From a virus: a stretch of DNA of 30,396 nucleotides. The position numbers were made by a program, and so were the translations under genes. Of the stretch, positions 16,034-28,580 are shown piece after piece (the stretch's first letter is position 1; each line of letters starts with the position of its first letter). Location of the stretch: the IMG/VR virus record IMGVR_UViG_3300025640_000042, positions 1 to 30,396 of that record; one strand, 5' to 3'. A model generated the notes under the pieces. That model was not told the DNA's origin. It saw only the letters and a list, made by a program, of their open reading frames with translations, and searched no databases.

Positions 16034-16057
16034 CCCCCCGTTTGTTTCAGCGGGGGG
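16034..16057 (-). terminator. Conserved-loop hairpin, copy 1
   Basis: Minus-strand CCCCCCG, loop CTGAAACAAA, CGGGGGG, followed by ATTTGG. The loop is identical to those at 27078-27101 and 27920-27943, while the stem differs by paired changes. It starts about 20 bases after the stop at 16078. The T-tract is weak, so termination may be partial. Confidence 0.7.
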
Positions 16058-16077
16058 CGGTTGGTGTGTGGGGTTGT

Positions 16078-16320
16078 TTAGTAAACGTGAACCTTTGTTG
16101 TTTCTTTGCAAGTTTCAAAACGCTTTTTTGCTGGAACAACTACTTCCATTGTGCCGGCCATTAGTCTTTGTTTCTCTATTCTTTCGGGTGAATCAATCAA
16201 GAAACTCAACAATCTCTTTCCGTTTTTTTGAAATGATTCTTTGATTTCTAAAACATTTCCAACGCAATCACCTAATTTGATTGTGTTTCCAACTTTGATT
16301 TCGTTTGCTTGTAATTTCAT
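16078..16320 (-). CDS. Hypothetical cassette gene, 80 aa
   Basis: This protein is not recognised. It starts at the ATG at 16320, preceded by the leader AACACCACA, and has its own promoter (16360-16391) and a conserved-loop hairpin behind it. It therefore forms a separate transcription unit inserted between the terminase and portal regions, in the manner of a moron. The N-terminal half (NEIKVGNTIKLGDCVGNVLEIKES) looks like a small beta-barrel. The C-terminal half is basic (VVVPAKKRFETCKETTKVHVY). A longer in-frame reading exists upstream, but it runs through the promoter and is rejected. The expression style suggests an early or host-directed function, which is inference. Confidence 0.72.
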   Translation of the reverse strand: MKLQANEIKVGNTIKLGDCVGNVLEIKESFQKNGKRLLSFLIDSPERIEKQRLMAGTMEVVVPAKKRFETCKETTKVHVY

Positions 16321-16332
16321 TGTGGTGTTTTG

Positions 16333-16395
16333 TTTGGTCGTTGCTCCGTTGCAACACTTCAAATATACAAAAAAATCAATACAATCCACAAAACG
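16333..16395 (-). promoter_or_regulatory. Cassette promoter and 5' hairpin, copy A
   Basis: On the minus strand, CGTTTTGTGGATT contains TTG (16391-16389). It is followed after 21 bases by TATATTTG (16367-16360), a full match to the Bacteroidota -7 element. Immediately downstream is a hairpin with stem GTTGC/GCAAC and loop AACGGA. Bases 16333-16364 are identical to 28520-28551. Confidence 0.75.
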
Positions 16396-16406
16396 TGAAA
16401 AACTTT

Positions 16407-16571
16407 TCAATTATTTTTATTCGTTTCCAAATCAGTGCGGAACACATTGATGATTTCCCCATCAAGTAAGATGCGCACAATGTACCCGTCACCCGTTTCA
16501 GCAATCCACGGCGTGAACCCATTTTCAAACAACATCAATCCCAATTCGCGGGCATCTTCCATTTTCATCAT
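16407..16571 (-). CDS. Hypothetical small protein after large terminase, 54 aa
   Basis: A short gene whose ATG overlaps the large terminase stop (ATGATG with TGA), ending just before the copy A promoter. The sequence (MEDARELGLMLFENGFTPWI, then GYIVRILLDGEIINVFRTD) looks like a compact alpha/beta domain with good coding character. I do not recognise a family. Tight coupling suggests it is made with the terminase, but a packaging role is not demonstrated. The second and third Met codons lie within four residues, so the exact start is uncertain. Confidence 0.65.
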   Translation of the reverse strand: MMKMEDARELGLMLFENGFTPWIAETGDGYIVRILLDGEIINVFRTDLETNKNN

Positions 16572-18118
16572 AACATTCGAATTCCTTGCGATTCATATGT
16601 GGACGTTCCCGTCATATCTTTTCCCTCCATCGTCATCATCTCGCCCAATGCCATTATCATAGCAATGATTCCGTCAATCTTGTCACCCGCTTTTGATTTG
16701 CTGAACTTCACATTCTCGGCATCGTCTTTTTTCGTGACTACATTCGCCGCCATCCATCGCATCATTCCGTGACCGCCATGATGCAACAATCGTTTCTTCA
16801 CCAAGATTTCCGCGTTCTTAATCGGTGCGGTCATAGATATGAAACCTTGACCGAACGGGTCCATCTCAATCCCGGCATCCGTCAATTGTTGGACCAATGA
16901 ATTCGAATTCCATCTATCAAAAGCCACGGATTGAATGTCAAAGATTTCCGCGCATTCCTTTATCTTTCTTTCAATGACCGCATAGTCCGTTGAATTCCCT
17001 TCCGTCACAATCAGTTCGCCAGCACTCACGAATTTGTCGTAAGAACCACCCGTTTGATTCCGACGTCGTTCAACGGCCGCTTCACTGACAAACAAAAACG
17101 GCACAATCTTGATGCTTTCGTCATCCATCGGGAACGCCAAAACGAACGCCGTGACATCTTCAACGGCGGCCAAATCAAGTCCCGCATATGCTTTGCGTCC
17201 TTTCAATTGTTCCAAATCTACATTGCCCGCTGATTTCATCCATTCGTCATCCGTAATCCACGACGCCAATGAGTTGACCCACTGGTTCAAATGCAGTTGA
17301 CGGAATGCGATTTCCGACGACGGCAACGTCTTTGCCTCGCGCGCCATCTTTTCAAAATATTCGGGCTTGATTGAGATGCCGAAATTTGGGTTCGCCTTTT
17401 TCCAAACCTTTGGGTCGTGAATGTCATCGTCCGGGTCCGCTTCATATATAAGCGGCAAAAACGTGTCATCCTCAATCACACCTTCTTCAACTCGTTTGCC
17501 GTAAGAATACAATTCGTGGCAAATGGAATTCGTGTCGAACACTCCAGCCGTGGTGATTGCAATCATCAAAGGTTGCGAACGCGCACCCATTGACGTCGCC
17601 ATCACATCCCACAAGTCGCGATTCTTCGCCGTGTGCAATTCGTCATATATTACCGCGGACGCATTCGCCCCGTGCAACAATCCAGCATCCGCCGCGACTG
17701 CTTTCAAAAATGAGTTGGTCCCGTTCAACACGATTGAGTTTTGGAACGTCTTGCAATTCTTTGTCAAGATTGCCGAGTTGCGAACCATTTGTTTGCATAC
17801 CTCGAACACAATCTTTGCTTGGTCCCGTGATGATGCGCAACAATAGATTTCCGCACCTTGTTCTTTTTCAACGAACAAAATCGCCAACGCAATGGCCGCC
17901 GATAAATTTGACTTTCCATTCTTTCGCGGAATCTGCACATAGGATGTTCGGTATTGACGCAAACCCGTCTTGTTCATTGTGCCGAACATCTTGTGAATGA
18001 ATTCCTTTTGCCAATCTTCCAAAAGGAAAGGTTGGTTTGCCAAATCGCCTTTCACGTGCGTGCATACGCGTTCAATGAAATTGATGATTTTGTTTGATTT
18101 TGTTTCGTCGTGTGTCAT
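16568..18118 (-). CDS. Terminase large subunit
   Basis: A 516-residue terminase large subunit (Terminase_1 type), the ATP-driven packaging motor with a headful or cos nuclease. The ATPase Walker A is PRKNGKS (residues 64-70), with upstream LLEDWQKEFIHKMFG typical of the family. Walker B is AVIYDELH (about 155-162), followed by a TTAGV coupling motif. The C-terminal RNase H-like nuclease has the acidic strand AYAGLDLAAVEDVTAF, the AFDRWNS motif and a late Asp in KAGDKIDGIIAMIMAL. Its start overlaps the small subunit stop by 4 bases (ATGA), and a 54-residue gene overlaps its own stop. Confidence 0.97.
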   Translation of the reverse strand: MTHDETKSNKIINFIERVCTHVKGDLANQPFLLEDWQKEFIHKMFGTMNKTGLRQYRTSYVQIPRKNGKSNLSAAIALAILFVEKEQGAEIYCCASSRDQAKIVFEVCKQMVRNSAILTKNCKTFQNSIVLNGTNSFLKAVAADAGLLHGANASAVIYDELHTAKNRDLWDVMATSMGARSQPLMIAITTAGVFDTNSICHELYSYGKRVEEGVIEDDTFLPLIYEADPDDDIHDPKVWKKANPNFGISIKPEYFEKMAREAKTLPSSEIAFRQLHLNQWVNSLASWITDDEWMKSAGNVDLEQLKGRKAYAGLDLAAVEDVTAFVLAFPMDDESIKIVPFLFVSEAAVERRRNQTGGSYDKFVSAGELIVTEGNSTDYAVIERKIKECAEIFDIQSVAFDRWNSNSLVQQLTDAGIEMDPFGQGFISMTAPIKNAEILVKKRLLHHGGHGMMRWMAANVVTKKDDAENVKFSKSKAGDKIDGIIAMIMALGEMMTMEGKDMTGTSTYESQGIRML

Positions 18119-18564
18119 CCAATCAAGTCATCAAGTGTTTCAATCTTTTCTTGCGTCTCAATCTTTGCGCGTGATGATGCGGTCAATCCAAATTGGACCA
18201 TCATCTTTTCAACCTTTGACCACGCGGCATTCATCATTGACACTTCGGGCCGTGGTCGCCACATCAAATCGCCTTGCGCGGTTGTGGTTGCGTAGGTCGG
18301 ACCTTGTTCTTTGACAACGGCGCGCGCGACTTGGTAATCTTCCCACGCGTCCGACAACATTTGCAACGCCATCGCATCCACTTCAGCAACGACACCAAGG
18401 TCGTCCAATTTTTTCACAAGCCATTCAAACGTTTCGTTCGCGGATTGTACTGCGGGCGCGGTTGGAATGCCATCGGCTTCCAATCGATTCTTGTGTCGGC
18501 TCGCATCGTAGGTGCCCTGCGCTTTTAATATTGCCGTTGGTTTTGGCTTTCTTCCTTTTCCCAT
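18115..18564 (-). CDS. Terminase small subunit (P27 family)
   Basis: A 149-residue P27-family small terminase that recognises the packaging site and delivers DNA to the large subunit. The N-terminus MGKGRKPKPTAILKAQGTYDASRHKNR is the family's usual 'G-RG~KP-P~~lk~l~G~~~~~r' opening. The C-terminal half is helical, with AMALQMLSDAWEDYQVARAVV and a final segment LTASSRAKIETQEKIE that matches the family's 'fGltPsSRakl'. The ATG at 18564 is preferred over the codon three residues earlier. The stretch upstream (18580-18718) has nested inverted repeats that could be the packaging site. Confidence 0.93.
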   Translation of the reverse strand: MGKGRKPKPTAILKAQGTYDASRHKNRLEADGIPTAPAVQSANETFEWLVKKLDDLGVVAEVDAMALQMLSDAWEDYQVARAVVKEQGPTYATTTAQGDLMWRPRPEVSMMNAAWSKVEKMMVQFGLTASSRAKIETQEKIETLDDLIG

Positions 18565-18585
18565 TTTAATCACATTTTATCATCA

Positions 18586-18711
18586 AATGCCCACATCTTG
18601 ACTTTAACACGCTCAAAAATGCGGTCGTGTTCGCTTTATGGGGGCGGTGATGTTTAGATTTTACCATTTTTACATTTAATACCGCCCTTCCCGTGGTAAT
18701 ATGTGGGCATT
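18586..18711. other. Noncoding stretch with nested inverted repeats; candidate packaging site
   Basis: The 150-base gap between the HNH gene and the small terminase has no open frame of note. It holds an outer inverted repeat AATGCCCACAT (18586-18596) / ATGTGGGCATT (18701-18711), an inner pair GGGCGGT (18640-18646) / ACCGCCC (18681-18687), and AACACG (18606-18611) / CGTGTT (18626-18631). Position beside terS and the adjacent HNH gene suggest a cos or pac site; a promoter or RNA structure is also possible. Confidence 0.45.
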
Positions 18712-18718
18712 ATCTTCA

Positions 18719-19006
18719 TCATTCGTGCGCTTCTTTGCCCGATTTTATATTATGACATCGATGACACATCGTTTGTAAGTTGTCCCACTCCAACGAATCG
18801 CCACCCGATTTGATTGGGATGATGTGGTCAACCACTTGGCCAATGCCATCGCATTCGACACACAATGGATGTCGTTTGATGAACATATTGCGGAGCGTTC
18901 GCCACGCACTGGTTTGATAGAACTTGTTGCGTTCCTTACGTTGCTTGCTTGCTTTGTTTTGACCTTGCAACCAAGGCCGTTGCTTTCGTTTTGGTACATT
19001 CGGCAT
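18719..19006 (-). CDS. HNH endonuclease
   Basis: A 95-residue HNH nuclease of the type often found beside terminase genes. The N-terminus is very basic. The metal-binding motif is complete: CVECDGIGQVVDHIIPIKSGG gives the first Cys pair and the catalytic DH, then LEWDNLQTMCHRCHNIKSG gives the Asn and the second Cys pair. In HK97-like phages such HNH proteins work with the terminase in DNA cleavage during packaging. The position just before the small terminase supports that role. A homing endonuclease role is less likely given the short length and context. Confidence 0.92.
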   Translation of the reverse strand: MPNVPKRKQRPWLQGQNKASKQRKERNKFYQTSAWRTLRNMFIKRHPLCVECDGIGQVVDHIIPIKSGGDSLEWDNLQTMCHRCHNIKSGKEAHE

Positions 19007-19008
19007 AT

Positions 19009-19332
19009 CTATTTTAATTTATCTTTTTGTTCGGGTTTGTAATACTTGCGCACATCACGACGTTGTTGGTCGCGCTCGACTGCCGTGATTTTTGATTCCC
19101 ACCAACCAAAATGAATGTACATGTGGTTCATCATCGTTTGGTTGGTTAGCTTATAGTTTCCACCTTCTTGCGGTATATTCAAGCCACGTTGTTCCGAATA
19201 CCTTTTGTCACAATGTTTGCATTGCGCACGTCGTCCACCACGTCCACGAATCAATTTGTTGAACTCAAGAATCGGTCGTTCGTTCTTGCATTTACTGCAT
19301 ACCTTGGTCGTCTCTTTCAAAGCGTTTTTCAA
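19009..19332 (-). CDS. Zinc-ribbon protein, 107 aa
   Basis: A basic protein with an N-terminal zinc ribbon: VCSKCKNERPILEFNK and AQCKHCDKRYSEQRG (two CxxC pairs about 25 residues apart). The remainder is helical and basic, with WWESKITAVERDQQRRDVRKYY. The same kind of ribbon opens the 183-residue HNH protein at 25471-26022, where it leads into a nuclease domain; here no HNH residues follow. It starts at a TTG (19332) inside the end of the gene upstream, so the start is uncertain. It may be the DNA-binding remnant of a homing endonuclease or a partner of the HNH protein that follows 2 bases later. Confidence 0.7.
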   Translation of the reverse strand: MKNALKETTKVCSKCKNERPILEFNKLIRGRGGRRAQCKHCDKRYSEQRGLNIPQEGGNYKLTNQTMMNHMYIHFGWWESKITAVERDQQRRDVRKYYKPEQKDKLK

Positions 19333-19537
19333 TTGCGGTTTTCCTATACTTTTTAATTCCTATGACCTTGCCGTCTGCATTCTTTACAAAGCGGATGGCG
19401 TGGCTTATCAATGCCGTGTCATTCACTTCCTTGATGACTGGAACCATTTCGTGTTTGCGTATCGGCTTCGATTCGCCAATCTCCATGTCCACAATCAGTT
19501 GGGCGATTGTGTTGCGGACCTTCAAATCTATCTTCAT
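19292..19537 (-). CDS. Hypothetical protein, 81 aa
   Basis: A small basic protein between a PD-(D/E)XK nuclease gene (overlap 4 bases, ATGA) and the zinc-ribbon gene. The middle (NDTALISHAIRFVKNADGKVIGIKKYRKTAIEKRFER) looks like a helix followed by a basic hairpin, suited to nucleic acid binding. I do not recognise a family. A link to the replication operon is inferred from overlap only. Confidence 0.7.
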   Translation of the reverse strand: MKIDLKVRNTIAQLIVDMEIGESKPIRKHEMVPVIKEVNDTALISHAIRFVKNADGKVIGIKKYRKTAIEKRFERDDQGMQ

Positions 19538-19971
19538 AAGATATGAAATTTTTCAATATCAATGTAGGCGTTGCGACGTATCGCCTCACCACCATCAATT
19601 GATTTTTGTGTTCTCGTTTCTTTTATCTCCATCGGTACCGCTACACCATACTCATCACCTAATTCAAGGCCGATGACAACGCCGTCTTTGATTAGGTACA
19701 CAATCAAGATGAACGGCACACACATCATTCGTGACATCTCAATGCCGTTCAATATCTTATCATAAGAAATCAAATAGGTGCCGAACCGCTCCATTGATTC
19801 CAATGATTCATTGCGTGATTTGAATTCAACGATGTGCGTCACCTCGTTGTTCTTTGTTGCAACGCCATCAATGAGCGCATATTTGGGCGTTGTGTGGATT
19901 TTCCATCCGTACCGCTTCAACAAGTGGTCGAACGCTAATTCTTCGAAACGTTGGTAATCTTCGTACTTCAT
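19534..19971 (-). CDS. PD-(D/E)XK-fold nuclease-like protein, 145 aa
   Basis: A compact protein with a likely PD-(D/E)XK core. The helix EELAFDHLLKRYGWKIHTTPKYALIDGVA supplies an early Glu and an Asp. Then THIVEFKSRN gives the E-x-K element after a short hairpin. A hydrophobic strand follows (MCVPFILIVYLIKDG). Length and motif spacing fit small restriction-like or resolvase-like nucleases. It overlaps the primase-helicase stop by 4 bases, so it belongs to the replication operon. Possible roles are Holliday junction or branch processing; the substrate cannot be read from the sequence. Confidence 0.72.
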   Translation of the reverse strand: MKYEDYQRFEELAFDHLLKRYGWKIHTTPKYALIDGVATKNNEVTHIVEFKSRNESLESMERFGTYLISYDKILNGIEMSRMMCVPFILIVYLIKDGVVIGLELGDEYGVAVPMEIKETRTQKSIDGGEAIRRNAYIDIEKFHIL

Positions 19972-21923
19972 ATGGGGTTTGTTAGTTCGACAACTCGCGA
20001 ACGTGCGACTTTTTTATAGTGAATGATGTTTGTTGCTTCCATCTCGTTCAATGCCTTTTGCGCGATGCGTCTTAACACGCCTTCGGTGTCTGCAATGTAT
20101 TTGACGGCATCCGTTGTGGTCTTGCCTTCAATCATCGGAGCCATTCGTTTGTGGTCGTCAATAGTCCACACTCGTTCGGGTGCTGATTCGAAATCTTCTT
20201 TTTGAACCAGTTCAATCGTATCATATCCAGTGATGGTCATTTCCATCGATGGGAATTCTTTGTTCCTTGTGTATTCGGGAACGATGTCGGATGCGCCCGG
20301 TGTTGTTTCTGATTTCGCTAATGAAATTGTTGATTCTGACTTTTGGACGAGATAAGACCCCAAATGTCCCTTGGCATTTTTGTCGTTCTTGTTTTCGTGT
20401 AATACACACGAAATGTGACAATTGTTGTTTGATGTCCATTGCAACAACATTGACGCCAATGCGGTCGCTTCTTCTTCATCGTTGACGCCTTTAGATGCCA
20501 AGTCAACCACACCATCAATGACGACATATCCAATATTGTCAAACGACTTCATGACGTAGTCCGTCAATTTCAATCGTTCCTTGTTCGTGAGCAATCCACG
20601 GAATCGGTAGTGTTTGAAATTAGGTAAGTTGACGCGTGGGTCCAATCCCGCCATCGTTTGAATCCTATTCTTTGATTTTGATGCGTGCCACGAACCTTGT
20701 TCCGTATCAATGTAAATGTTGACCTTGTCGGCAACGTGTCCACGAATATGACCACAAACGTCGTGTTCCGATATCGCCGCGGCCATCAATGCGCTTAAGA
20801 AATACGATTTCCGTGATTTGGCTTTTCCTTGAATCAATGAAAAGTTGCCCATCGTTCCAAAGATGTATTCATCCGTTCCAAAATGCAACGTGATGGCTTT
20901 TTCGGGTTCTTCAATCTCTTTGGTTGAATCCACTTCCAATGATTCCAACAACGCCTTCATTTCATCGATGTCGTCATCGGTTGCGCTCTCATAATCAAAC
21001 AACGCATCGTCGGGAATCGCCGGGGCTTGTTGCTCACCAAATCCATCGTTTCGCAATTCGCGAATCGCGCTTTGGAAGTCACCGCCGTGGACCAATACAA
21101 CGAACGCTTGAAATGAATCATAAGTGTGTTGGGCCTCAAATTGTGTTGATGTCGTGAATGGCATGAATAAACCCGAATCTTTGAACACCACGCCCGACGT
21201 TTCGGCATCCGTGTTGCCGGGACGCTTCACATACGTCATTCGTTCGTTCTCACCGACTATCGTCCACCCCGCGGACGTCAGTACATCCAACACGTGGTAT
21301 TTGGCTCTAAAGTCACCCCACGGCGTTGTTTCATCAACATCCCCCGACCAAACCGAATCCGTGGGCTGATTCTTCATCGGTTCGGCCTTGGGGACGTCTG
21401 CATTCATCATGCGAGCGCATGACCAAATGATGTTTCTTTCATCGGGCGTGATGGTTTTCACGTCCGTTATCTTTCCAATGATTTTGTAACCCGCCGACGG
21501 CCAAACAACGATTTGACCACCACGGCCACGCGTTTCAAAAGTGACTTCGCCATCTTTGTTTTTGGCCAACTTTTCATTGCCCGCGATTTCCGAACATTTG
21601 AAAATCCAATGAAAGCCACCCGAACGCGTTTGTTGAATGACCATTCTTTCAATCAATGTCGGGTCGTTTTGTTCTATCAATGCGACGAACTCATTGTATT
21701 CATCACCCTCGAAATGCTTGGCATCAATATCCAAACATTGAATGCCGTCGTACCCCATAACCAAACCAATCGAATTGGTGTGGGCAAATGGTTTGAAATC
21801 GGTGACGGGTTCGTCTATTGTTTTTTGCCATCCCTTGATTGCTGGAACCTTGGAATCGGGTCGCAACGGAATCGGTTTGAATCCGTGGTCGACGTATTTT
21901 TTGGCAATCTTTGTGATGTCCAT
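19968..21923 (-). CDS. Primase-polymerase / RecA-like helicase fusion
   Basis: A 651-residue replication protein with two enzymatic domains. Residues ~1-170 are a prim-pol (AEP) domain: PLRPDSKVPAIKGW, the catalytic LDIDA (Asp65, Asp67), SGGFHW (His105) and ETRGRGGQIVVWPS (Glu130). Residues ~345-560 are a RecA/AAA_25-like helicase with a Walker A-like IQGKAKSRKS (366-373), a YIDTEQG segment typical of RepA/RAD55-like ATPases, and Walker B GYVVIDG (Asp470). The C-terminus has a small winged-helix-like region. It should prime and unwind DNA at the phage fork. It is the largest replication gene, and no separate DNA polymerase is seen in the window, so synthesis presumably uses the host polymerase. 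Confidence 0.92.
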   Translation of the reverse strand: MDITKIAKKYVDHGFKPIPLRPDSKVPAIKGWQKTIDEPVTDFKPFAHTNSIGLVMGYDGIQCLDIDAKHFEGDEYNEFVALIEQNDPTLIERMVIQQTRSGGFHWIFKCSEIAGNEKLAKNKDGEVTFETRGRGGQIVVWPSAGYKIIGKITDVKTITPDERNIIWSCARMMNADVPKAEPMKNQPTDSVWSGDVDETTPWGDFRAKYHVLDVLTSAGWTIVGENERMTYVKRPGNTDAETSGVVFKDSGLFMPFTTSTQFEAQHTYDSFQAFVVLVHGGDFQSAIRELRNDGFGEQQAPAIPDDALFDYESATDDDIDEMKALLESLEVDSTKEIEEPEKAITLHFGTDEYIFGTMGNFSLIQGKAKSRKSYFLSALMAAAISEHDVCGHIRGHVADKVNIYIDTEQGSWHASKSKNRIQTMAGLDPRVNLPNFKHYRFRGLLTNKERLKLTDYVMKSFDNIGYVVIDGVVDLASKGVNDEEEATALASMLLQWTSNNNCHISCVLHENKNDKNAKGHLGSYLVQKSESTISLAKSETTPGASDIVPEYTRNKEFPSMEMTITGYDTIELVQKEDFESAPERVWTIDDHKRMAPMIEGKTTTDAVKYIADTEGVLRRIAQKALNEMEATNIIHYKKVARSRVVELTNPI

Positions 21924-22312: not shown

Positions 22313-22737
22313 ATCTTCGCAATCTTTGCGATGTAGTCGTCGTACGATTTGGCGATGAAATACACTCCGCCAACTGCATTGATTTCTTTTTCAATTTCCT
22401 TTTGGTCCGCCGATTGTCGGTCGGCACCAATCTTGACTTCAATACCAATGAAACGTCCATCAATGATTCCGATGATATCGGGCACTCCTTTTCGTTGCAC
22501 ACCCGCTCGATAGACACGTTTTTTAACGTCATACACGGCCCCGTTGTTGATTCGGTATGCTACACCCTCGCGGACGTGATACATGTCCCAAATGATGGTT
22601 TTTGTGAGGTCGTTGGCGGTTGTGTCTTTGAATCGCTTCTTCACCAATGCATGTGGCGGGAAGTCGGGGTGCTTTTCTGCTTTTAACTTATCGGCCAGTT
22701 GGCCCAACTCTTTCAAGTTCTTCGGAATCCAATTCAT
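22309..22737 (-). CDS. VRR-NUC domain nuclease
   Basis: A 142-residue VRR-NUC protein (PD-(D/E)XK superfamily, related to FAN1 and phage resolvases). The diagnostic core is GVQRKGVPDIIGIIDGRFIGIEVK followed by SADQKEIEKEINAVGGVYFIAKS, giving PD, E-x-K and a conserved Gln. The N-terminal ~50 residues are a basic helix (LADKLKAEKHPDFPPHALVK). I chose the ATG at 22737 (MNWIPKN), although the frame is open farther upstream, because the longer version lies inside the 61-residue gene. The likely function is cleavage of branched DNA. Confidence 0.88.
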   Translation of the reverse strand: MNWIPKNLKELGQLADKLKAEKHPDFPPHALVKKRFKDTTANDLTKTIIWDMYHVREGVAYRINNGAVYDVKKRVYRAGVQRKGVPDIIGIIDGRFIGIEVKIGADRQSADQKEIEKEINAVGGVYFIAKSYDDYIAKIAKI

Positions 22738-22873
22738 TGGGGGTTGTTTGCGTTTCAAATTGTTTGTTCGCCGCGTGTTCAATCATTCGGCTGATATGGG
22801 ATTTGTCCATTGCGTGGAAATATTGTTTGGCTATTTCCCAGCACATTGAATCAACCGAGGATTTTTTGTTCAT
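22688..22873 (-). CDS. Hypothetical protein, 61 aa
   Basis: A short gene overlapping the end of the exonuclease gene by 23 bases and the start of the VRR-NUC gene by 50 bases. The predicted protein is helical and polar (SVDSMCWEIAKQYFHAMDKS, then MIEHAANKQFETQ). I do not recognise it. It fills the space between two clear genes and starts with an ATG, which argues for coding, but the length of its overlap with VRR-NUC is unusual in this genome. Confidence 0.5.
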   Translation of the reverse strand: MNKKSSVDSMCWEIAKQYFHAMDKSHISRMIEHAANKQFETQTTPNELDSEELERVGPTGR

Positions 22874-23467
22874 ATTTTTTCAACTTATCCCAAAACTTCA
22901 AATATTCCATCTTGCGCATTTCTAAATCTAAACCAACATCCGGGTCATCGCGGTGAACTCGAAAAATAAACAAATTTTTTGAAATGCGCGGGTCGAATGA
23001 AACAAAGTCCACCCATTGAATAGAATCCACAATCAAAAAATAGTGCATCACTTGATGTTTGTAAATCGCTGGAACCTTTCCACCTCTTAAATATTCAATG
23101 TGCTTTTTGCTTGATGGACATTTGATTTCAACGCCACCAATGGGAACGCCGTCTTCATAAACCAAAGCGTCGGGACTGATTGCCAACCATTCGTGTTCGT
23201 CGTGAATACAAAAACCAATCTCACGGGCATCACGCCCCGTTTGCATTCGGTAGGCATCCAACGCCACGGGTTCCATCAATATCCCGTGCATCATTGCGCC
23301 CGTTGTTGGCGATTCTACATCTCGCCGCTTAATCGTTCGGCGATGAGTTCATCCACAAAGGAAAGGTTGTTCGATTTGAACACGTTCCCACAACGGGAAC
23401 CCGTGATGACGCCAAGGCGCATTTCAAACCATTCTTTGCTTCGTTGTTCTACGTTCTTTATTTTCAT
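22851..23467 (-). CDS. YqaJ/lambda-type exonuclease, split by a frame change
   Basis: A recombination exonuclease encoded in two frames. The first part (ATG at 23467, TAG at 23317-23315) holds the family N-terminus EQRSKEWFEMRLGVITGSR and ends ...ERLSGEM. A -1 change near 23321 joins ...LSGE to DVESPTTGAMMHGILMEPVALDAY, giving ~205 residues, close to lambda exonuclease. The catalytic core is in the second part: WLAISPDALVYED (Asp) and GVEIKCPS (Glu, Lys). Read separately, the second part has no start codon before the two Met codons at 23294 and lacks the N-terminal lobe. This is either a real frameshift mutation, a sequencing or assembly error (one missing G would suffice), or programmed shifting; no canonical slippery heptamer is visible. 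It would act with an annealing protein, none of which I can identify here. Confidence 0.8.
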
Positions 23468-23646
23468 GCTCCGTATTTTTTTCGGTATTTCTCGAATAAA
23501 TGTTCACCATCATCGCCAAACAATACTTTGGCCACCATGATGCTTTTGCGTTGTTCACAACCGCGTTTCCATTTGCGGTGGTCGTCGCTTCTTTGATAGG
23601 TCCAATCGTGGGTTTCCAACAATTGAATAAAGTCGTGCTTAGTCAT
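23464..23646 (-). CDS. Hypothetical basic protein, 60 aa
   Basis: A small basic protein (MTKHDFIQLLETHDWTYQRS, then HRKWKRGCEQRKSI). It overlaps the exonuclease start by 4 bases (ATGA) and the 48-residue gene upstream by 8 bases. The mixture of aromatic and basic residues suggests nucleic-acid contact, but no known motif is visible. I use the ATG at 23646; a TTG two codons earlier is in frame. Confidence 0.68.
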   Translation of the reverse strand: MTKHDFIQLLETHDWTYQRSDDHRKWKRGCEQRKSIMVAKVLFGDDGEHLFEKYRKKYGA

Positions 23647-23785
23647 TTTCAATTCCGTTTTGTTTCAAATCGCGTTGGTTTAATTCCACAATGCGATTGC
23701 GGTTGATTTCTTTCAATAGGTCGGCCAATCGTTTGACCTCATCCAATGGGTACCCCATCAGTTTGTTGAATGCTTCTTCGTTCAT
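23639..23785 (-). CDS. Hypothetical small helical protein, 48 aa
   Basis: A short gene with start ATGA overlapping the stop of the 68-residue gene, and an 8-base overlap with the gene that follows. The protein is a charged helix (MNEEAFNKLMGYPLDEVKRL, then LLKEINRNRIVELNQ), likely a coiled coil. It sits in a run of five coupled small genes that share a leader repeat. Function is unknown. Confidence 0.6.
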   Translation of the reverse strand: MNEEAFNKLMGYPLDEVKRLADLLKEINRNRIVELNQRDLKQNGIEND

Positions 23786-23988
23786 TTCTCGTTGGTGTTA
23801 AAGGTTTCTACTACTGGTGCATTACTTTGTACTACTTCCCCTTTCAGCCAAACTGAACCATTAAACTCTTGGTGCATTACTTTGGGTTTCCAAAACTGCC
23901 ACCAGCGAGGTGAGGATTCAACTACAAAGGTTGTTTCTAATCTGCTCCATCCGTTTAAGGATTCTGTTACTTCAAATTTTGTTTTCAT
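23782..23988 (-). CDS. Hypothetical protein, 68 aa
   Basis: A small protein with an aromatic patch (SSPRWWQFWKPKV) between two beta-like stretches (KFEVTESLNGWSRLETTFVV and GSVWLKGEVVQS). Start and stop both overlap neighbours by 4 bases (ATGA). Its last residues, NTNEK, are encoded by the repeated leader sequence of the next gene. I do not recognise a family. Confidence 0.65.
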   Translation of the reverse strand: MKTKFEVTESLNGWSRLETTFVVESSPRWWQFWKPKVMHQEFNGSVWLKGEVVQSNAPVVETFNTNEK

Positions 23989-24239
23989 TTTTCTTTTGTT
24001 TTAAAGGTTTCGTTGTAGAAATCTAGAATGACCTCATAATTAGTGAGGTTTCTCGGAGACCTCCAGTTATTTTGGTCTTTTATTTCATCACCGCAATTAA
24101 AAGCAAACTCACACATCACCTCTTTCTCTTTCTCAAGCATTGCTTCGGCTGCCTCAATACACGGAGCAACCTCGTAAGAGTCTCCGTACTTGGCTATTTC
24201 CCACATTTGGTCAATTAGTTCTTGCATTGGTGTTTTCAT
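23985..24239 (-). CDS. Hypothetical helical protein, 84 aa
   Basis: An acidic helical protein (MQELIDQMWEIAKYGDSYEV, then CIEAAEAMLEKEKEVMCEFAF). It resembles many small unnamed phage proteins with a helix-turn-helix pair near a DYNETF-like end. It is coupled by ATGA overlaps to both neighbours. The final residues KTKEK derive from the shared leader sequence. Function is unknown. Confidence 0.68.
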   Translation of the reverse strand: MKTPMQELIDQMWEIAKYGDSYEVAPCIEAAEAMLEKEKEVMCEFAFNCGDEIKDQNNWRSPRNLTNYEVILDFYNETFKTKEK

Positions 24240-24385
24240 TTCTCTTTGGTGTTAAGTTCTTCCTTTAGCCTTTTATCAAAATATGCAAATACATCTTCTT
24301 GACTCCCAAAAAGAACAAGGTGCAAAGGTATTTTTTTAGGGTTAGTCGCTTTTTTGTAGGCTTTAGCCCATTCTTTAATCTTCAT
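24236..24385 (-). CDS. Hypothetical protein, 49 aa
   Basis: A short gene starting at the ATG at 24385 with the full copy of the junction leader upstream; its TGA overlaps the next ATG. The protein is basic at the N-terminus (MKIKEWAKAYKKATNPKKIP) and has a short hydrophobic strand (LHLVLFGSQEDVFAYFDKRL). It is the first gene after the repeat-rich noncoding stretch and so the head of the small-gene run. No family is recognised. Confidence 0.62.
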   Translation of the reverse strand: MKIKEWAKAYKKATNPKKIPLHLVLFGSQEDVFAYFDKRLKEELNTKEK

Positions 24386-24601
24386 TTCTCTTTTGTTTTA
24401 AAGGTTACTAATTTGCGCCCATTATTATTGGTGTGCGCCTATTTTTATATGATTGAACTTTTCCCCGAACTTTTCCCCGAACTTGTTAGTGGTCTGGGTT
24501 GCGCCTATTTTTATATGCTTGCGCCTATAATTTGATGGAAAAGCCCATCTTTATATGCTTAAACTCTTTTTATTGGTGTAAATAAGCACCATTCAATCGG
24601 C
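24386..24601. other. Noncoding stretch with iteron-like repeats; candidate replication origin
   Basis: This 216-base AT-rich stretch has no credible gene. Five related units of about 20 bases begin at 24414, 24434, 24500, 24520 and 24542. The best two share TGCGCCTATTTTTATATG (24434-24451 and 24500-24517); the others vary (TGCGCCCATTATTATTGGTG, TGCGCCTATAATTTGATGG, AGCCCATCTTTATATGCTT). Start-to-start distances of 20, 66, 20 and 22 put the units roughly on one helix face. Between them is a 12-bp tandem repeat of TTCCCCGAACTT type (24458-24486). It lies near the DnaA-like gene. An origin or operator array is inferred. Confidence 0.6.
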
Positions 24602-24901
24602 TTATTGTACATCCCGATGTTCATCAATCGCCATCTTCAATCCGGCCAATTCTTCCAACGACAAATCCAAAATCATTTCGACTTTGTATTGAATCGTTGA
24701 CATCAATTCTTCATCCGTGGAATCCAATGCGGACAATGGCCCGCGAATCGCACGTTCGATTTCCGTTTCCAATCGCGTCATCATCGCTTTGATGTTTTGA
24801 CGATGCAATCGTGTTCCCTTCATCGTGTCCATTTGTTCCAATGTTGCTTGGTACAATGCCACCAACTTGATGGCGTCTTTGAAGTGTGTAAACTTGTCCA
24901 T
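24602..24901 (-). CDS. Hypothetical helical protein, 99 aa
   Basis: A helical protein with a coiled-coil look (FKDAIKLVALYQATLEQMDT, then AMMTRLETEIERAIRG), ending in EELAGLKMAIDEHRDVQ. It starts at the ATG at 24901, 2 bases after the 64-residue gene, and is followed by the iteron-like stretch. No family is recognised. Position between a DnaA-like gene and a putative origin makes a replication or regulatory role possible, without direct evidence. Confidence 0.72.
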   Translation of the reverse strand: MDKFTHFKDAIKLVALYQATLEQMDTMKGTRLHRQNIKAMMTRLETEIERAIRGPLSALDSTDEELMSTIQYKVEMILDLSLEELAGLKMAIDEHRDVQ

Positions 24902-24903
24902 AG

Positions 24904-25098
24904 TTAAAAGACTAACCACCGACGGCGGCGTTCATATTTACGAATTAACTTGGCATTGTTATCCAACGCTCGAACGATGTCGTCGTTCCATTGCGTTTTG
25001 GATGCCACCAACATCGTGTTGAGTGAATCCCATTGCAGTTCGATGATGTATCGGCGCACGAATGCCATGTGGCGACGCTTACGAATTAACTTCTTCAT
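24904..25098 (-). CDS. Hypothetical very basic small protein, 64 aa
   Basis: A strongly basic protein ([19 protein letters not shown], then LIRKYERRRRWLVF) with a helical middle. The charge suggests nucleic acid binding. The ATG at 25098 overlaps the end of the DnaA-like gene by 20 bases; a TTG at 25107 is less likely. No family is recognised. Confidence 0.62.
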   Translation of the reverse strand: MKKLIRKRRHMAFVRRYIIELQWDSLNTMLVASKTQWNDDIVRALDNNAKLIRKYERRRRWLVF

Positions 25099-25474
25099 AC
25101 CTTTCAAGTCTTTGTTTCAACATGTCGTTTTCCCTTCTTAGAATCTCAATCAATGCCGTGTTTTGTTCCTTGTTCGCTTTGGCACGTTCGTCGTATTTCG
25201 TTAAGATTTCCGTCAATGATGCAAATACCTCGCGGTATTGCGGCACTAACATCAACGCGTCGTGATTCTTAAAATGGTGCAGAATCGTGGCGTGGTTCTT
25301 TCCGAAGTATCTGCCCAGCGTGGACGCGGAAAAATATCCGCGACACACGTTGAACAATGCCGCACGCGGAACCACAACCGATTCAAGACGTCGTTTTTCC
25401 ATAACGTCGACGGCGAACTCATTCTTTAGGAATGCCACCATCTCGTCAATCATTGTTGTTGGTCGTACGTTCAT
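25079..25474 (-). CDS. Stand-alone DnaA domain IV-like DNA-binding protein
   Basis: A 131-residue protein whose residues ~33-75 resemble the DNA-binding domain IV of Dna[21 protein letters not shown], then [20 protein letters not shown], matching the family's 'lG~~FGrdHtTVlha' signature. There is no ATPase domain. The C-terminal ~50 residues form a coiled coil ([20 protein letters not shown]), probably for dimerisation. Domain IV of DnaA binds 9-bp boxes at origins, so this could bind the repeats at 24414-24560 or host DnaA boxes; none of the repeats is a standard TTATCCACA box. It overlaps the HNH gene upstream by 4 bases. Confidence 0.82.
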
Positions 25475-26022
25475 TTAATTTTATTTTTTAACATCAAATA
25501 ATACTTTATGTGACGATATTTTGTATCAAGCAAATCGCCAGCGGTAAATAATCCAACATTGCGAGTGCAACGATACATCATTCGTTCTTGGTCGTATTCC
25601 ATATACCTATGTAAATAATTGTGTTCCTTTCGAGTAAGCCAAATGATATTCTTTTCAAAACCTTCGGAATAGTTCCAATGATGTTTTTCAAATCCGTCTT
25701 TTTTTAAATTAGATGATTTATTCTTACATCTTTTTTTCTCTGGATATCTTTCATCATAACGCGACATTGCCTTTTTTTTATTCTCCGCTAATGGCTGATG
25801 TCTACCATCCGAATAAAGGCGATGATATTTTTCTCTTGCTCGAATCTTTTCTTTCTCTATCCATTCCGGATTTTGACGCAATCGTTTTTCGCGTTCATCA
25901 ACATCCTTCCTTGTGCAATCTTTACATTTATTAAGGTGGCCATCCGCCATCTGCTTATGTTTATAAAAAGCAGATAGCGGTTTTTCTTGACCACATTTAA
26001 AACAAACCTTCGTGTTTTTCAT
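25471..26022 (-). CDS. Zinc-ribbon HNH homing-type endonuclease, 183 aa
   Basis: A basic protein with an N-terminal zinc ribbon ([30 protein letters not shown]), a long basic helical linker, and a C-terminal HNH-like segment [30 protein letters not shown] containing HH, a central Asn and a final His. The pattern resembles phage homing endonucleases. The gene is visibly richer in A and T than its neighbours, which suggests recent arrival. A partial promoter element (TACCTTTG at 26043-26036) precedes it. It is a free-standing gene and I see no intron. Confidence 0.82.
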
Positions 26023-26035
26023 TTTTTATTTTTTA

Positions 26036-26088
26036 CAAAGGTAGTTTTAAAATGATTAGAATGGAAATTTTATTTTACCATTTTAAAA
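26036..26088 (-). promoter_or_regulatory. AT-rich junction with 10-bp inverted repeat and -7-like element
   Basis: TTTTAAAATG (26045-26054) and CATTTTAAAA (26079-26088) form a perfect inverted repeat at the SSB stop codon. Just downstream on the minus strand is TACCTTTG (26043-26036), a match to TAnnTTTG 14 bases before the HNH gene start; no clear TTG lies at the right distance. It may be a weak terminator followed by a promoter. Confidence 0.4.
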
Positions 26089-26637
26089 AGGTAATGAATC
26101 GTCGTCGTCATCACCGAATGCATCGGCTTGGCTTGCAACATTTGGTTTGCTTGATGGAACGTTTTCAAATCCCGGTGTCAATTCACCGACATCGGGCAAA
26201 CCTTCAAACAAGGCATCGGAATCGTTGGTCTTGTATTCCACAAGATTCGTGATGACGTAAGCCGACAACCAAACCGACAAACCTTTCTTGCCTTTGTGTT
26301 CCCATTTCTTAATCCATACGTTCGCACGAATTTCACTTCCGTCCCCAATCAATCCGTCAAACATTTGGCGGTTCGCCAAATATCCTTTCGGCACATTGAT
26401 GGACTTGATTTTCACAACGGGTTCCTCATGCTTGAAATTGCCTTGTGGGTCTTTCGCACGAACGTGGTCCAAGACCTTGAGGTCCGTCAATTGCTTTGTG
26501 CTTGCATCATCTAAATACAAATCACAACCATACTTTTCCGACATTCCGTCGGGACCGCTTTCGTTCGTTAAGCGGGCATACTTTACCGAACCACTCAAGA
26601 TGGTTCCGTGTCCTTTTGCAAAATCTACATTTGCCAT
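26083..26637 (-). CDS. Phage single-stranded DNA-binding protein
   Basis: A 184-residue ssDNA-binding protein that protects replication intermediates. The body is a beta-rich OB-like domain (GTILSGSVKYARLTNESG, then VVKIKSINVPKGYL and EIRANVWIKKWEHKGKKGLSVWLSAYVI). The C-terminus carries an acidic tail ending DDDDDSLPF, close to the DDDIPF tip by which bacterial SSB recruits partners. T7 gp2.5-type proteins also have acidic tails. I prefer the ATG at 26637 (MANVDFAKG) because the conserved part starts there; the frame is open for nine more residues to 26664. A short palindrome lies upstream. Confidence 0.85.
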   Translation of the reverse strand: MANVDFAKGHGTILSGSVKYARLTNESGPDGMSEKYGCDLYLDDASTKQLTDLKVLDHVRAKDPQGNFKHEEPVVKIKSINVPKGYLANRQMFDGLIGDGSEIRANVWIKKWEHKGKKGLSVWLSAYVITNLVEYKTNDSDALFEGLPDVGELTPGFENVPSSKPNVASQADAFGDDDDDSLPF

Positions 26638-26675
26638 ATTAAAAAAATTTGTTGACGCCATCATTGTTGAATCAC

Positions 26676-26698
26676 AATCACGGGCGTCGTTCGTGATT
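26676..26698 (-). promoter_or_regulatory. Hairpin upstream of the SSB gene
   Basis: AATCACG (26676-26682) pairs with CGTGATT (26692-26698) around 9 bases. It lies in the leader about 40 bases upstream of the SSB start and has no T-tract, so an operator or mRNA leader structure is more likely than a terminator. Confidence 0.4.
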
Positions 26699-26710
26699 GC
26701 TCTCTTTTCG

Positions 26711-26842
26711 TTATGCGTCGACCCCTAAAAGAATCGACAACAATTTGTAAACGGATAGTATTGCGAATGAACCAATGAAGAACATCGCCATCAGTACGAC
26801 TGAATATCCAATGTTTTCGAATGTGGTGTATTGCTTTTTCAT
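26711..26842 (-). CDS. Small membrane protein, 43 aa
   Basis: A short gene with the leader CACCACACGATT directly before its ATG, the same leader as two genes upstream. The protein has one strong membrane segment (SVVLMAMFFIGSFAILSVY) from about residue 14, continuing into a second hydrophobic run KLLSILLG. It should sit in the inner membrane. It lies in the early region, so an effect on the host membrane or superinfection is possible. It is not near the lysis genes. No family is recognised. Confidence 0.68.
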   Translation of the reverse strand: MKKQYTTFENIGYSVVLMAMFFIGSFAILSVYKLLSILLGVDA

Positions 26843-26864
26843 AATCGTGTGGTGTTTGGTTTTG

Positions 26865-27047
26865 TTAATATTCGGATTCATCAAGGAATCGAGACGTCAA
26901 CCTTGCTTTGTGTCCATCTCTTTTGATTAGACGGAACCACAACAACGCTTGGTCGTATTTTATAAACTCGCCATCGAGTAGGCCGTTCGCCCATACTTGG
27001 TAGACTCTTTGATTTTCTTTGTCGGGTGTGCTGAACATTGGATTCAT
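26865..27047 (-). CDS. Hypothetical early protein, 60 aa
   Basis: The gene starts at the ATG at 27047 after the leader CACCACACGATT and follows the conserved-loop hairpin of cassette B by about 30 bases, so its expression depends on read-through or on a promoter I cannot see. The protein (RVYQVWANGLLDGEFIKYDQ, then LLWFRLIKRDGHKARLT) looks like a compact alpha/beta domain. A longer upstream reading runs through the hairpin and previous gene and is rejected. Function is unknown. Confidence 0.68.
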   Translation of the reverse strand: MNPMFSTPDKENQRVYQVWANGLLDGEFIKYDQALLWFRLIKRDGHKARLTSRFLDESEY

Positions 27048-27077
27048 AATCGTGTGGTGTTTGTTTGCACCCAAAAA

Positions 27078-27101
27078 CCCGACGTTTGTTTCAGCGTCGG
27101 G
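27078..27101 (-). terminator. Conserved-loop hairpin, copy 2
   Basis: Minus-strand CCCGACG, loop CTGAAACAAA, CGTCGGG, followed by TTTTT (27077-27073). The loop is identical to the other two copies. It lies just after the stop of the 82-residue gene and has a proper T-tract, so it probably terminates transcription. Confidence 0.82.
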
Positions 27102-27124
27102 CGTTTGGTTCGTTGGGGTTGGTT

Positions 27125-27373
27125 TTAGAAATCTAAAGTGAATGAAACTTCTTCGATATCTTTTTCGGTAGCCAACTCGATGTCCATCCATGTTTGGTCG
27201 CGTTCCGTTGGTGATTCGATTGCACACGTCACGCCGTTCATTTCTTCCAATAGTCTTTCGTATTCTTCAGAATCTTCGTTTTGCAGTTTCTTGAATGTTG
27301 CGTTTGAAACCTCAACAATACGTTCTTCAGTTACGATGTAAGTTTCGGTGTAAGTTACTTTGATAGTTTTCAT
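27125..27373 (-). CDS. Hypothetical cassette gene, acidic, 82 aa
   Basis: An acidic protein with a beta-rich N-terminus (MKTIKVTYTETYIVTEERIV) and a charged helix (FKKLQNEDSEEYERLLEEM), ending in a strand (VSFTLDF). It starts at the ATG at 27373 after the leader CACCACACGATT, with its own promoter (27413-27448) and a conserved-loop terminator. Strongly acidic small early proteins are often inhibitors of host DNA-binding proteins or DNA mimics; that is speculation here. The longer in-frame reading from 27601 crosses the promoter and is rejected. Confidence 0.75.
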   Translation of the reverse strand: MKTIKVTYTETYIVTEERIVEVSNATFKKLQNEDSEEYERLLEEMNGVTCAIESPTERDQTWMDIELATEKDIEEVSFTLDF

Positions 27374-27384
27374 AATCGTGTGGT

Positions 27385-27448
27385 GTTTTGGTATCGCTTC
27401 GTTGCGATGGTGTAAACATACAACAAAATTCCGAATCCACAATACGTG
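27385..27448 (-). promoter_or_regulatory. Cassette promoter and 5' hairpin, copy B
   Basis: On the minus strand, CACGTATTGTGGATTC contains TTG (27442-27440), then 19 bases, then TATGTTTA (27420-27413), one base off TAnnTTTG. Downstream is a hairpin with stem ATCGC/GCGAT and loop AACGAA: same loop type as copies A and C, with a compensated stem. Confidence 0.68.
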
Positions 27449-27506
27449 AATAAAAAATAATTTAAAAAATGTGAATACAAGTGTTAAGAACCCACCATCC
27501 ATAAAC

Positions 27507-27537
27507 TTGACTTTATCAATTGCGGTCGTTAACTTTG
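27507..27537 (+). promoter_or_regulatory. Candidate plus-strand promoter
   Basis: TTG (27507-27509), 20 bases, TAACTTTG (27530-27537): a full match to the Bacteroidota consensus on the plus strand, where no gene follows. A palindrome spans the predicted start of transcription. The T-rich side of the terminator at 27683-27718 would end such a transcript after about 175 bases. Confidence 0.45.
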
Positions 27538-27598
27538 GCCATGTGAATGAATTCACGCCCCCGGGAGGGGAGCGGCAAATCTCATTCTCATTTTTGGA

Positions 27599-27627
27599 CA
27601 AAGTTAAAATTTAACAAAAGAGCCAAA
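27599..27627 (-). promoter_or_regulatory. Candidate minus-strand promoter with overlapping palindrome
   Basis: On the minus strand TTTG (27627-27624), 17 bases, TAACTTTG (27606-27599). The palindrome GTTAAA-A-TTTAAC overlaps the -7 element, as an operator might. It faces the plus-strand candidate about 60 bases away and would transcribe toward the 82-residue gene. Confidence 0.42.
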
Positions 27628-27682
27628 AAAGAAAGAACAACACAATCTCTTGCTCTCTTATATCTCTATTGTGTTAAGCAGA

Positions 27683-27718
27683 AACCCCGACGAAACGAAT
27701 GCGTAACGTCGGGGTTTT
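27683..27718. terminator. Strong bidirectional terminator
   Basis: AACCCCGACG (27683-27692) pairs with CGTCGGGGTT (27707-27716) around 14 bases. The plus strand continues TTTTCT; the minus strand reads GGGGTTTCTG. It follows the stop of the 48-residue gene on the minus strand and could also end a plus-strand RNA. Confidence 0.82.
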
Positions 27719-27742
27719 CTCATTTAATGATGGGGTGTTGGT

Positions 27743-27889
27743 TTACAATCTCTTTAATGCTTTTGGACGTTTTCCAACAACATCCATAATGTGGTCAAGC
27801 GCGTCATGACACGACCAAAAGGGTAGCAACATTAGAACTGGTTGTTCGTTTCTTTCGAACAACACTTCGAATTGATTTAAATTTTCCAT
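27743..27889 (-). CDS. Hypothetical early protein, 48 aa
   Basis: A short gene (ATG 27889, TAA 27745-27743) between the conserved-loop hairpin of cassette C and a strong terminator. The protein reads MENLNQFEVLFERNEQPVLM, then LLPFWSCHDALDHIMDVVGK and a basic end. Its opening strand and the SCHDALDHI helix have good coding character. It would be transcribed by read-through of the cassette C hairpin. No family is recognised. Confidence 0.62.
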   Translation of the reverse strand: MENLNQFEVLFERNEQPVLMLLPFWSCHDALDHIMDVVGKRPKALKRL

Positions 27890-27919
27890 TTTATAGTGTT
27901 TAAAGTTTGCACCCGAAAA

Positions 27920-27943
27920 CCCCGCATTTGTTTCAGTGCGGGG
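27920..27943 (-). terminator. Conserved-loop hairpin, copy 3
   Basis: Minus-strand CCCCGCA, loop CTGAAACAAA, TGCGGGG, followed by TTTT (27919-27916). Loop identical to copies 1 and 2, stem changed by paired substitutions. It lies about 20 bases after the stop of the 89-residue gene. The flank AACCCCAACGAACC is shared with copy 2. Confidence 0.8.
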
Positions 27944-27964
27944 CGTTGGGTTCGTTGGGGTTGA

Positions 27965-28234
27965 TTAAGCAACACGAACGATGATTCCTTTTGATGCCTT
28001 ATCGTTCCGGTCGGGTGAAAAGAAGATGCTTTCGTTCAATTCCATCTTCATCATTTGCTCCCAGTAATACGATTGAATCGCATACATGAATTCCCAATCG
28101 TCTCCCTCTGCTTGGTTGTTGAAGAAGATTCTTTTGAAAGAATAATCCGATGTTGACACATGGTTACCTTCTTGGATTGTGATGCGGTAAACGATTTCTT
28201 TTGGTTCGTTTGCTTTGAATACTTGCTTTTTCAT
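27965..28234 (-). CDS. Hypothetical cassette gene, 89 aa
   Basis: The second gene of cassette C. The protein is beta-rich (EPKEIVYRITIQEGNHVSTS) followed by a helix with aromatic residues (DDWEFMYAIQSYYWEQMM) and a final strand. The frame is open for 25 more codons to an ATG at 28309, one base after the stop of the gene upstream. I prefer 28234 because the leader ACACCAA before ATGAA is the one used by the first gene of this cassette; the longer form is quite possible. No family is recognised. Confidence 0.66.
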   Translation of the reverse strand: MKKQVFKANEPKEIVYRITIQEGNHVSTSDYSFKRIFFNNQAEGDDWEFMYAIQSYYWEQMMKMELNESIFFSPDRNDKASKGIIVRVA

Positions 28235-28310
28235 TTGGTGTTTGTTTTTGGTTGTTTCGTTTTTATTGAATCCCTCGCGGTCGAGGATTTGATTTTGCCA
28301 GTCTTGCATT

Positions 28311-28508
28311 TTATCTTAATTGGTAGTTACCTTTTTTTGATTCCTCGTTGAAGTAGTTTGTCCAATACTCTATGGCGTCCGCGGTGTTGATGCTTTTAAC
28401 TGCGCTTGTTCCGTCTTCTTTTTCTGTAATCTTTACAAGTCCGAAGAAGTTTATTTCTACTTTAAGGTCTTGGTTTTCAAACGTTTGGTGTGTTGTGAAA
28501 TTCTTCAT
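28311..28508 (-). CDS. Hypothetical cassette gene, 65 aa
   Basis: The first gene of cassette C, starting at the ATG at 28508, 39 bases after the promoter -7 element and directly after the 5' hairpin and the leader AACACCAA. The protein starts with NFTTHQTFENQDLKVEINFF, then LVKITEKEDGTSAVKSINTA and a helix AIEYWTNYFNEESKKGNYQLR. The beta-hairpin plus helix suggests a small single domain. No family is recognised. Its promoter makes it one of the earliest candidates for expression. Confidence 0.7.
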   Translation of the reverse strand: MKNFTTHQTFENQDLKVEINFFGLVKITEKEDGTSAVKSINTADAIEYWTNYFNEESKKGNYQLR

Positions 28509-28519
28509 TTGGTGTTTGT

Positions 28520-28580
28520 TTTGGTCGTTGCTCCGTTGCAACACTTCAAATGTAAGACAATATTTTGAATTCACAATACG
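28520..28580 (-). promoter_or_regulatory. Cassette promoter and 5' hairpin, copy C
   Basis: On the minus strand CGTATTGTGAATTC contains TTG (28576-28574), then 19 bases, then TACATTTG (28554-28547), a full match to TAnnTTTG. The hairpin GTTGC-AACGGA-GCAAC follows. Bases 28520-28551 are identical to 16333-16364 in copy A, 12 kb away. Confidence 0.78.

Follow-up and report, generated by a model that had tools for sequence, protein, structure and literature searches.

Promoter early stem-loops (PeSLs) are reportedly known from T4-like myoviruses through work by Arbiol in 2010 and Comeau in 2014. As described in PMC4503421, they are composite motifs of a promoter and a stem-loop, proposed to mediate gene shuffling between related phages. 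Lambdoid phages carry morons, in the definition quoted in PMC1524935. In Cluster K mycobacteriophages, a short repeat (SAS/ESAS) stands just before the start codons of small non-structural genes belonging to different families, and some of them have inverted repeats upstream; it is rare in hosts, and a role in translation initiation was proposed (PMC3203893). The clean boundaries with which phages acquire genes have long been debated, short conserved boundary sequences being set against random joints with selection (PMC3029335). Here, we analyzed a viral stretch of 30,396 nucleotides (IMG/VR record IMGVR_UViG_3300025640_000042, positions 1 to 30,396; the window), in which three copies of one frame, consisting of a promoter, a 5′ hairpin, a leader, small genes and a terminal hairpin, are probably accessory-gene slots, where small genes are exchanged behind a constant 5′ module by the mechanism proposed below. 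The boundary question is directly testable in this system, because the boundaries are visible, repeated and present in many contigs from a range of metagenomes, the empty sites providing a reference. A first-pass annotation of the window knew of no named description of such frames; it overlooked morons, T4-type PeSLs and the SAS/ESAS of mycobacteriophages, all of them systems of this kind in other phages. Our literature search found no description of such a system in flavobacterial phages.

Cassette 1 lies between the conserved genes p54 and p78 (slot A; Table 1). Relatives were fetched with p78, the gene after the cassette, hairpins playing no part in the choice, and the compared contigs were metagenomic (L numbers below identify individual sequences and F numbers gene families). 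The p54-p78 interval was present in 47 related contigs, empty in 17 (42-55 nt) and filled in 30 (305-1567 nt), and the inserts represented 22 unrelated gene families. Empty sites never contained the 3′ hairpin, which is therefore part of the insert and not of p78; the sigma-A consensus promoter was absent from them as well. The 5′ modules of the slot were of three types, its 3′ ends consisted of a hairpin with the loop CTGAAACAAA, of GGCGGCCC-GAAA-GGGTCGCC, of another GC hairpin or of none, and most combinations of the two occurred. In 53 contig pairs, different unrelated cargo followed 5′ modules that were at least 90% identical, with identity over the first 150 nt of the coding sequence close to the shuffled level (0.54 vs 0.52), and 14 cargo families were found directly behind near-identical 5′ modules. 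Families F1, F5, F7 and F10 occurred under different 5′ modules, and F1, F7 and F8 were combined with more than one 3′ end; in addition, F3, F9 and F11, which are genes of a second site (site B) in the window, were present at site A in relatives. A tree of p54 and p78 required at least 5 changes between empty and filled, 23 of cargo and 15 of the 3′ end, and cargo turnover on it was thus rapid. The exchange of genes within a common frame, as the first-pass annotation had suggested, is thus demonstrated at the sequence level, with few 5′ module types and cargo common to two sites; the annotation would have given up this view if no relative had combined the hairpin-promoter pair with variable genes, and the opposite was found. 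At empty sites (e.g. L066 and L089), we also observed a conserved box, ATATATTGTGnA, just ahead of p78, which resembles the upstream part of the cassette promoter and is perhaps a late promoter or an ancestral joint.

The inserts have most of the features of lambdoid morons. They are short genes inserted between genes that are adjacent in relatives, their promoter is predicted from sequence and is missing at empty sites, and their base composition is distinct, since GC content of the cassette genes, at 0.34-0.43, was low compared with the median of 0.435 (p 0.001). A 3′ hairpin is usual in both systems; as a terminator it is less clear here, the T run being 2-5 and some inserts having no hairpin. 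Unlike in morons, one constant promoter-leader module here serves the exchange of many different genes, a promoter may be common to several units, and the genome shows no sign of lysogeny.

The exchange frame can be refined in that several 3′ ends are interchangeable and gain or loss may involve just one gene with its hairpin and leader, behind an existing promoter and with junctions in the leader. L072 contained promoter, leader and F4, whereas L069 contained promoter, leader, F17, hairpin, leader and F4. A different gene with a hairpin occupied the F17 position in L057, and another gene with a CTGAGACAAA hairpin stood ahead of the same F4 gene in L145. In the window, F11, its hairpin and F3 follow the 5′ leader and precede the next gene; these are absent in L114, and comparison of the two revealed a perfect 19-nt leader repeat before each gene, the repeat AACACCACACGATTATGAA, whose perfect copies precede three successive genes (0 expected). 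At positions 2560-3233 of L042, three CTGAAACAAA hairpins were found within approximately 620 bp with small genes between them, an array whose units share one promoter. Junctions located in the leader suggest that recombination takes place at short repeats.

The leader motif AACACCA had 14 occurrences in the window (6.6 expected), and 0 of 100 shuffles reached this number. Leaders were A/C-rich and had no Shine-Dalgarno sequence, the type preferred in Bacteroidota (PMC6847099, PMC9723704). The logic of a repeat at start codons is that of SAS/ESAS. However, the sequences are unrelated, the leader is here attached to a promoter and a hairpin at +1, and gain and loss of units are directly observed.

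All three frames carried, on the minus strand, the related promoter, 5′ hairpin and AACACCA leader that had been annotated. By sequence, each promoter is a canonical Bacteroidota sigma-A promoter. The upstream box, CGTATTGTGGATT, was exact at 27434-27446 and had one mismatch each at 16383-16395 and 28568-28580; it was not found elsewhere in the genome within one mismatch. The downstream box had been given as TAnnTTTG, which holds for copies 1 and 3 (TATATTTG and TACATTTG) and not for copy 2 (TATGTTTA), where the last G is not kept. Over the whole minus strand, the pattern TTG-N19-23-TAnnTTT[GA][AC] had four matches, three of which were these promoters. In F. johnsoniae and F. psychrophilum, the -33/-7 consensus is TTTG/TAnnTTTG, and the -7 box extends from -12 to -5 (PMC6847099, PMC9723704). 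By this mapped rule, the predicted +1 coincides with the first hairpin base in all three frames, one base off the earlier guesses (16354, 27407 and 28541). The +1 hairpin is GTTGC-AACGGA-GCAAC in copies 1 and 3 and ATCGC-AACGAA-GCGAT in copy 2, where both arms have changed together. Among 18 distinct sequences the stem was 100% paired, three pairs having changed on both sides, compared with 20-61% in slid controls.

The three terminal hairpins have the form CCCnnnn-CTGAAACAAA-nnnnGGG, with the common loop that the annotation had described as identical and with fully complementary variable stem positions. A scan of viral contigs for this form yielded 52 stretches, approximately 44 of which had fully complementary free positions; the rest look like chance. 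In 45 distinct sequences, pairing of the inner stem reached 99.7%, both partners having changed at four pairs, and an outer helix, CCACC/GGTGG, was paired in 62% of cells; overall pairing was 82%, against 40-50% in slid controls. A model of the 3′ hairpin (R1) separated viral loci cleanly, the accepted ones scoring at least 42 bits and the next 21. The hairpin is located 6-37 nt (median 19) past a stop codon and, in 41 of 49 instances measured, 23-42 nt (median 30) ahead of the next ATG on the same strand. The longest downstream T run in the distinct copies was 2-5, mostly 3 or 4 and mostly followed by GG; both the loop and the 3′ flank, NTTTGGTGGTA, were very conserved. Given that there is no real U tract and that the next ATG is close by, the hairpin is an intercistronic element rather than a classical terminator. 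In the window, each hairpin is followed by the ATG of the next gene after about 30 nt, and the cassettes are therefore not closed units: the annotated recurring layout is present, but the frames are not self-contained. No relevant Rfam match was found in the window up to E 5, and a literature text search for the loop sequence returned unrelated papers only. A host or phage factor acting on the conserved loop is conceivable. A pseudoknot between the loop CAAA and TTTG was dropped by reasoning on geometry, as one nucleotide cannot span a 7-bp stem.

The same frame was detected in a second phage lineage, represented by eight contigs with a different 3′ hairpin (GGGCCGTTAACGCGGCCC). In all eight, an SSB-like gene is followed by the same 5′ stem-loop module, and a single gene, one of five unrelated ones, lies between module and hairpin; the module with its 150 upstream nucleotides was 95-100% identical and the 3′ hairpin identical. 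A ninth contig (L152) contained the module and another gene, and breaks off before the hairpin. In addition, three isolates, Polaribacter phages Freya_8-10 (L158-L160), had the 5′ module ahead of an early-region gene (E 8e-6); with 55.8 bits in these phages, the model of the +1 hairpin module (R2) is a usable search handle. In the records of Freya_9 and Freya_10, three annotated small genes precede the module, and Freya_8 has no such genes there. A host origin of the modules was considered and rejected: the exact 5′ pattern was found in 0 of 399 genomes of one sampled flavobacterial order, the 3′ pattern had 4 matches in approximately 85,000 species genomes, none in a phage-like context, and R1 gave only weak matches (28-37 bits), in 5 of 299 genomes.

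Judged by their description in PMC4503421, T4 PeSLs are closest in logic to this system, as both have a composite of promoter and stem-loop and the shuffling of the same small genes between sites and phages is seen here too. There are several differences. The phages studied here are flavobacterial, with HK97-type head genes and, for the window, a 30-kb genome, and are not T4-like myoviruses; the promoter is of the Bacteroidota type, stem-loops stand both at +1 and at the end of the gene, the CTGAAACAAA loop is nearly invariant, and leader repeats serve as joints. Moreover, window hairpins are followed by a gene and not by the next promoter; one adjacent case is present in L028.

From the sequences we infer how a slot would be transcribed, its message kept stable and its contents exchanged, and what benefit would follow. 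Host RNA polymerase would transcribe the slot early, soon after entry, from the consensus promoter. A short message would be framed by the +1 stem-loop, which may protect its 5′ end, and by the GC hairpin behind the gene, which may be a weak terminator, a 3′-end protector or an insulator restricting spill-over to the following gene; the unstructured A/C-rich leader would suit Bacteroidota ribosomes. Exchange would proceed by annealing or homologous recombination at short promoter-leader and leader repeats and not by a site-specific recombinase, and new cargo that joins at these repeats would thus be expressed at once. With a 139-bp direct repeat (99%) at its two ends, the window represents a complete small phage genome of 30 kb, and it has terminase, portal, protease and capsid genes of HK97 type. 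No integrase or resolvase was found in this genome, in which PF00589 (tyrosine recombinase) had no match, with positive controls, and no serine recombinase was present; annealing at short repeats is favored for this reason. The phage encodes a YqaJ-type exonuclease and, by a weak match (E 1.3e-4), a gp2.5-like SSB/annealing protein, which may help exchange and could be causally linked to it. Accessory genes for host takeover or counter-defence are the probable cargo, which is the least certain part of the proposal.

Several observations weigh against the slot interpretation. Flanking genes may themselves recombine, which would inflate the change counts on the tree, and 4-6 filled slots end without a recognized 3′ hairpin, implying that the hairpin is not needed for exchange. 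Invariance of the loop was partly built in, because CTGAAACAAA was fixed in the first search pattern, and loop variants do occur (CTGAGACAAA in L145 and CTGAGATAAA in L168). The 5′ hairpins of copy 1 (z -0.3) and copy 3 (z -0.9) had ordinary stability. The YqaJ gene looks split in the window (22851-23467, minus strand): the reading frame that opens with the ATG at 23467 ends at a stop codon at 23315, and PF09588 is covered by the frame 22851-23294 only from profile position 53 onward, which looks like a frameshift, a stop or an assembly error. AlphaFold models of the cargo were of low confidence (mean pLDDT 56 for F7 and 46 for F11) and too poor to search.

Ordinary mosaicism would account for the variable genes by illegitimate recombination or by crossovers in the large flanking genes, the promoter, leader and hairpins being kept for their function in the host and not guiding exchange. 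Mosaic joints usually have no conserved boundary sequences (PMC3029335), the well-conserved genes on the terminase and portal sides of slot A could host crossovers, and some joints have no 3′ hairpin. However, individual units have been gained or lost precisely between leader repeats, with the promoter and the downstream gene unmoved, and the same cargo occurs at two distant sites, which flanking-gene crossovers cannot yield. With 14 cargo families behind near-identical modules as a further argument against it, we consider mosaicism of this kind unlikely. Integron cassettes resemble the present units as arrays of genes and hairpins behind one promoter, and the array in L042 and the conserved hairpin at the 3′ ends of unrelated genes might suggest that recombination takes place at the folded terminal hairpin and that each gene with its hairpin is a mobile cassette. 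This explanation is largely refuted and very improbable: the genome has no tyrosine or serine recombinase, the core boxes GTTRRRY and RYYYAAC of attC were found together in 0 of 45 hairpins by a crude pattern test, and the hairpin is dispensable, as slots with other hairpins or none also exchange cargo and the joints are in the leader. Also improbable, in our view, is the broader extension of the slot interpretation, namely that a platform for expression and exchange is common to otherwise unrelated flavobacterial phages, with the +1 stem-loop and the 3′ stem-loop, whose loop is nearly invariant, recognized by an RNA-binding factor of host or phage, leader repeats at which the exonuclease and annealing protein of the phage act, and counter-defence genes that are swapped.

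Other explanations concern the 3′ hairpin only. Its position shortly before the next ATG, the missing U tract and the conservation of loop and 3′ flank would fit a cis-regulator, i.e., a 5′ leader element of the following gene that does not serve the preceding cargo. Yet p78 has no hairpin at empty slots and has other hairpins or none behind other cargo, and CTGAAACAAA hairpins precede many unrelated downstream genes; there is little likelihood of this role. It is somewhat doubtful, although conceivable, that the hairpins are plain intrinsic terminators. Their GC-rich 7-bp stems right past stop codons are as expected for terminators, and in L028, where a second promoter comes next, a U6 version (CGCTGAAACG followed by TTTTTT) was found. 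On the other hand, the distinct copies otherwise have short T runs, the strand that follows pairs back upstream in the outer helix, and hairpins that do carry T6-7 runs are present at other places in this genome (near 15722 and 28610).

If the slot interpretation is correct, slots are a trap for small accessory genes. Listing their contents would yield candidate host-takeover and counter-defence genes in flavobacterial phages, for which functional data are scarce. The slots also indicate where gene swapping between phages happens. In the window, the cassette genes are small and unrelated, one or two per frame as annotated; blastp revealed no similarity among them, and none had a significant PHROGs or Pfam family. 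All annotated genes considered here are on the minus strand.

Table 1. Elements and genes of the three cassettes in the window
Feature	Position	Strand	Details
5′ module, cassette 1	16340..16395	-	-33 TTTTG; -7 TATATTTG 16360-16367; predicted +1 16355
+1 hairpin, cassette 1	16340-16355	-	GTTGC-AACGGA-GCAAC; R2 59.6 bits
Terminal hairpin, cassette 1	16020..16071, core 16034-16057	-	R1 68.1 bits
5′ module, cassette 2	27393..27446	-	-7 TATGTTTA 27413-27420; predicted +1 27408
+1 hairpin, cassette 2	27393-27408	-	ATCGC-AACGAA-GCGAT; R2 48.1 bits
Terminal hairpin, cassette 2	27064..27115, core 27078-27101	-	R1 58.2 bits
5′ module, cassette 3	28527..28580	-	-7 TACATTTG 28547-28554; predicted +1 28542
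+1 hairpin, cassette 3	28527-28542	-	R2 56.5 bits
Terminal hairpin, cassette 3	27906..27957, core 27920-27943	-	R1 64.7 bits
Leader/start repeat AACACCACACGATTATGAA, 19 nt, three perfect copies	27369-27387, 27043-27061, 26838-26856	-	bound inserted segment
p54, conserved, one side of slot A, downstream of terminase large subunit	16407..16571	-	
Cassette 1 cargo, family F7, 80 aa	16078..16320	-	F7 also in L168 under different 5′ module
p78, conserved, other side of slot A, upstream of portal gene	15766..16002	-	
Cassette 2 cargo, family F11, 82 aa	27125..27373	-	89% identical homologue in slot A of L101/L165
F3 cargo, 60 aa, behind cassette 2 hairpin and leader repeat	26865..27047	-	homologues in slot A of L042, L068
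Cassette 3 first cargo, family F9, 65 aa	28311..28508	-	homologue in slot A of L071
Cassette 3 second cargo, 89 aa, own AACACCA leader	27965..28234	-	
48-aa gene directly after cassette 3 hairpin, before different hairpin (CCCCGACG...CGTCGGGG)	27743..27889	-	

Named relatives of the phage were found neither by DNA nor by hairpin, and its terminase had only approximately 43% identity, with best matches to Firmicutes phages. Some other features of the genome were observed. A putative tail-region protein (2655-3590, minus strand) contains a partial alpha-L-arabinofuranosidase B domain (PF09206, E 1.5e-10). An intergenic block at 24420-24600 (minus strand) has several copies of a AAGCATATAAAAATAGGCGCAA-like unit plus GTTCGGGGAAAA repeats; it is iteron-like and possibly a replication origin. 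In addition, two facing TAACTTTGG-type boxes flank CTCCCGGGGGCG and a GAATTCATTC stretch at 27500-27640, an arrangement that is conserved in L114 and looks like a separate regulatory region.

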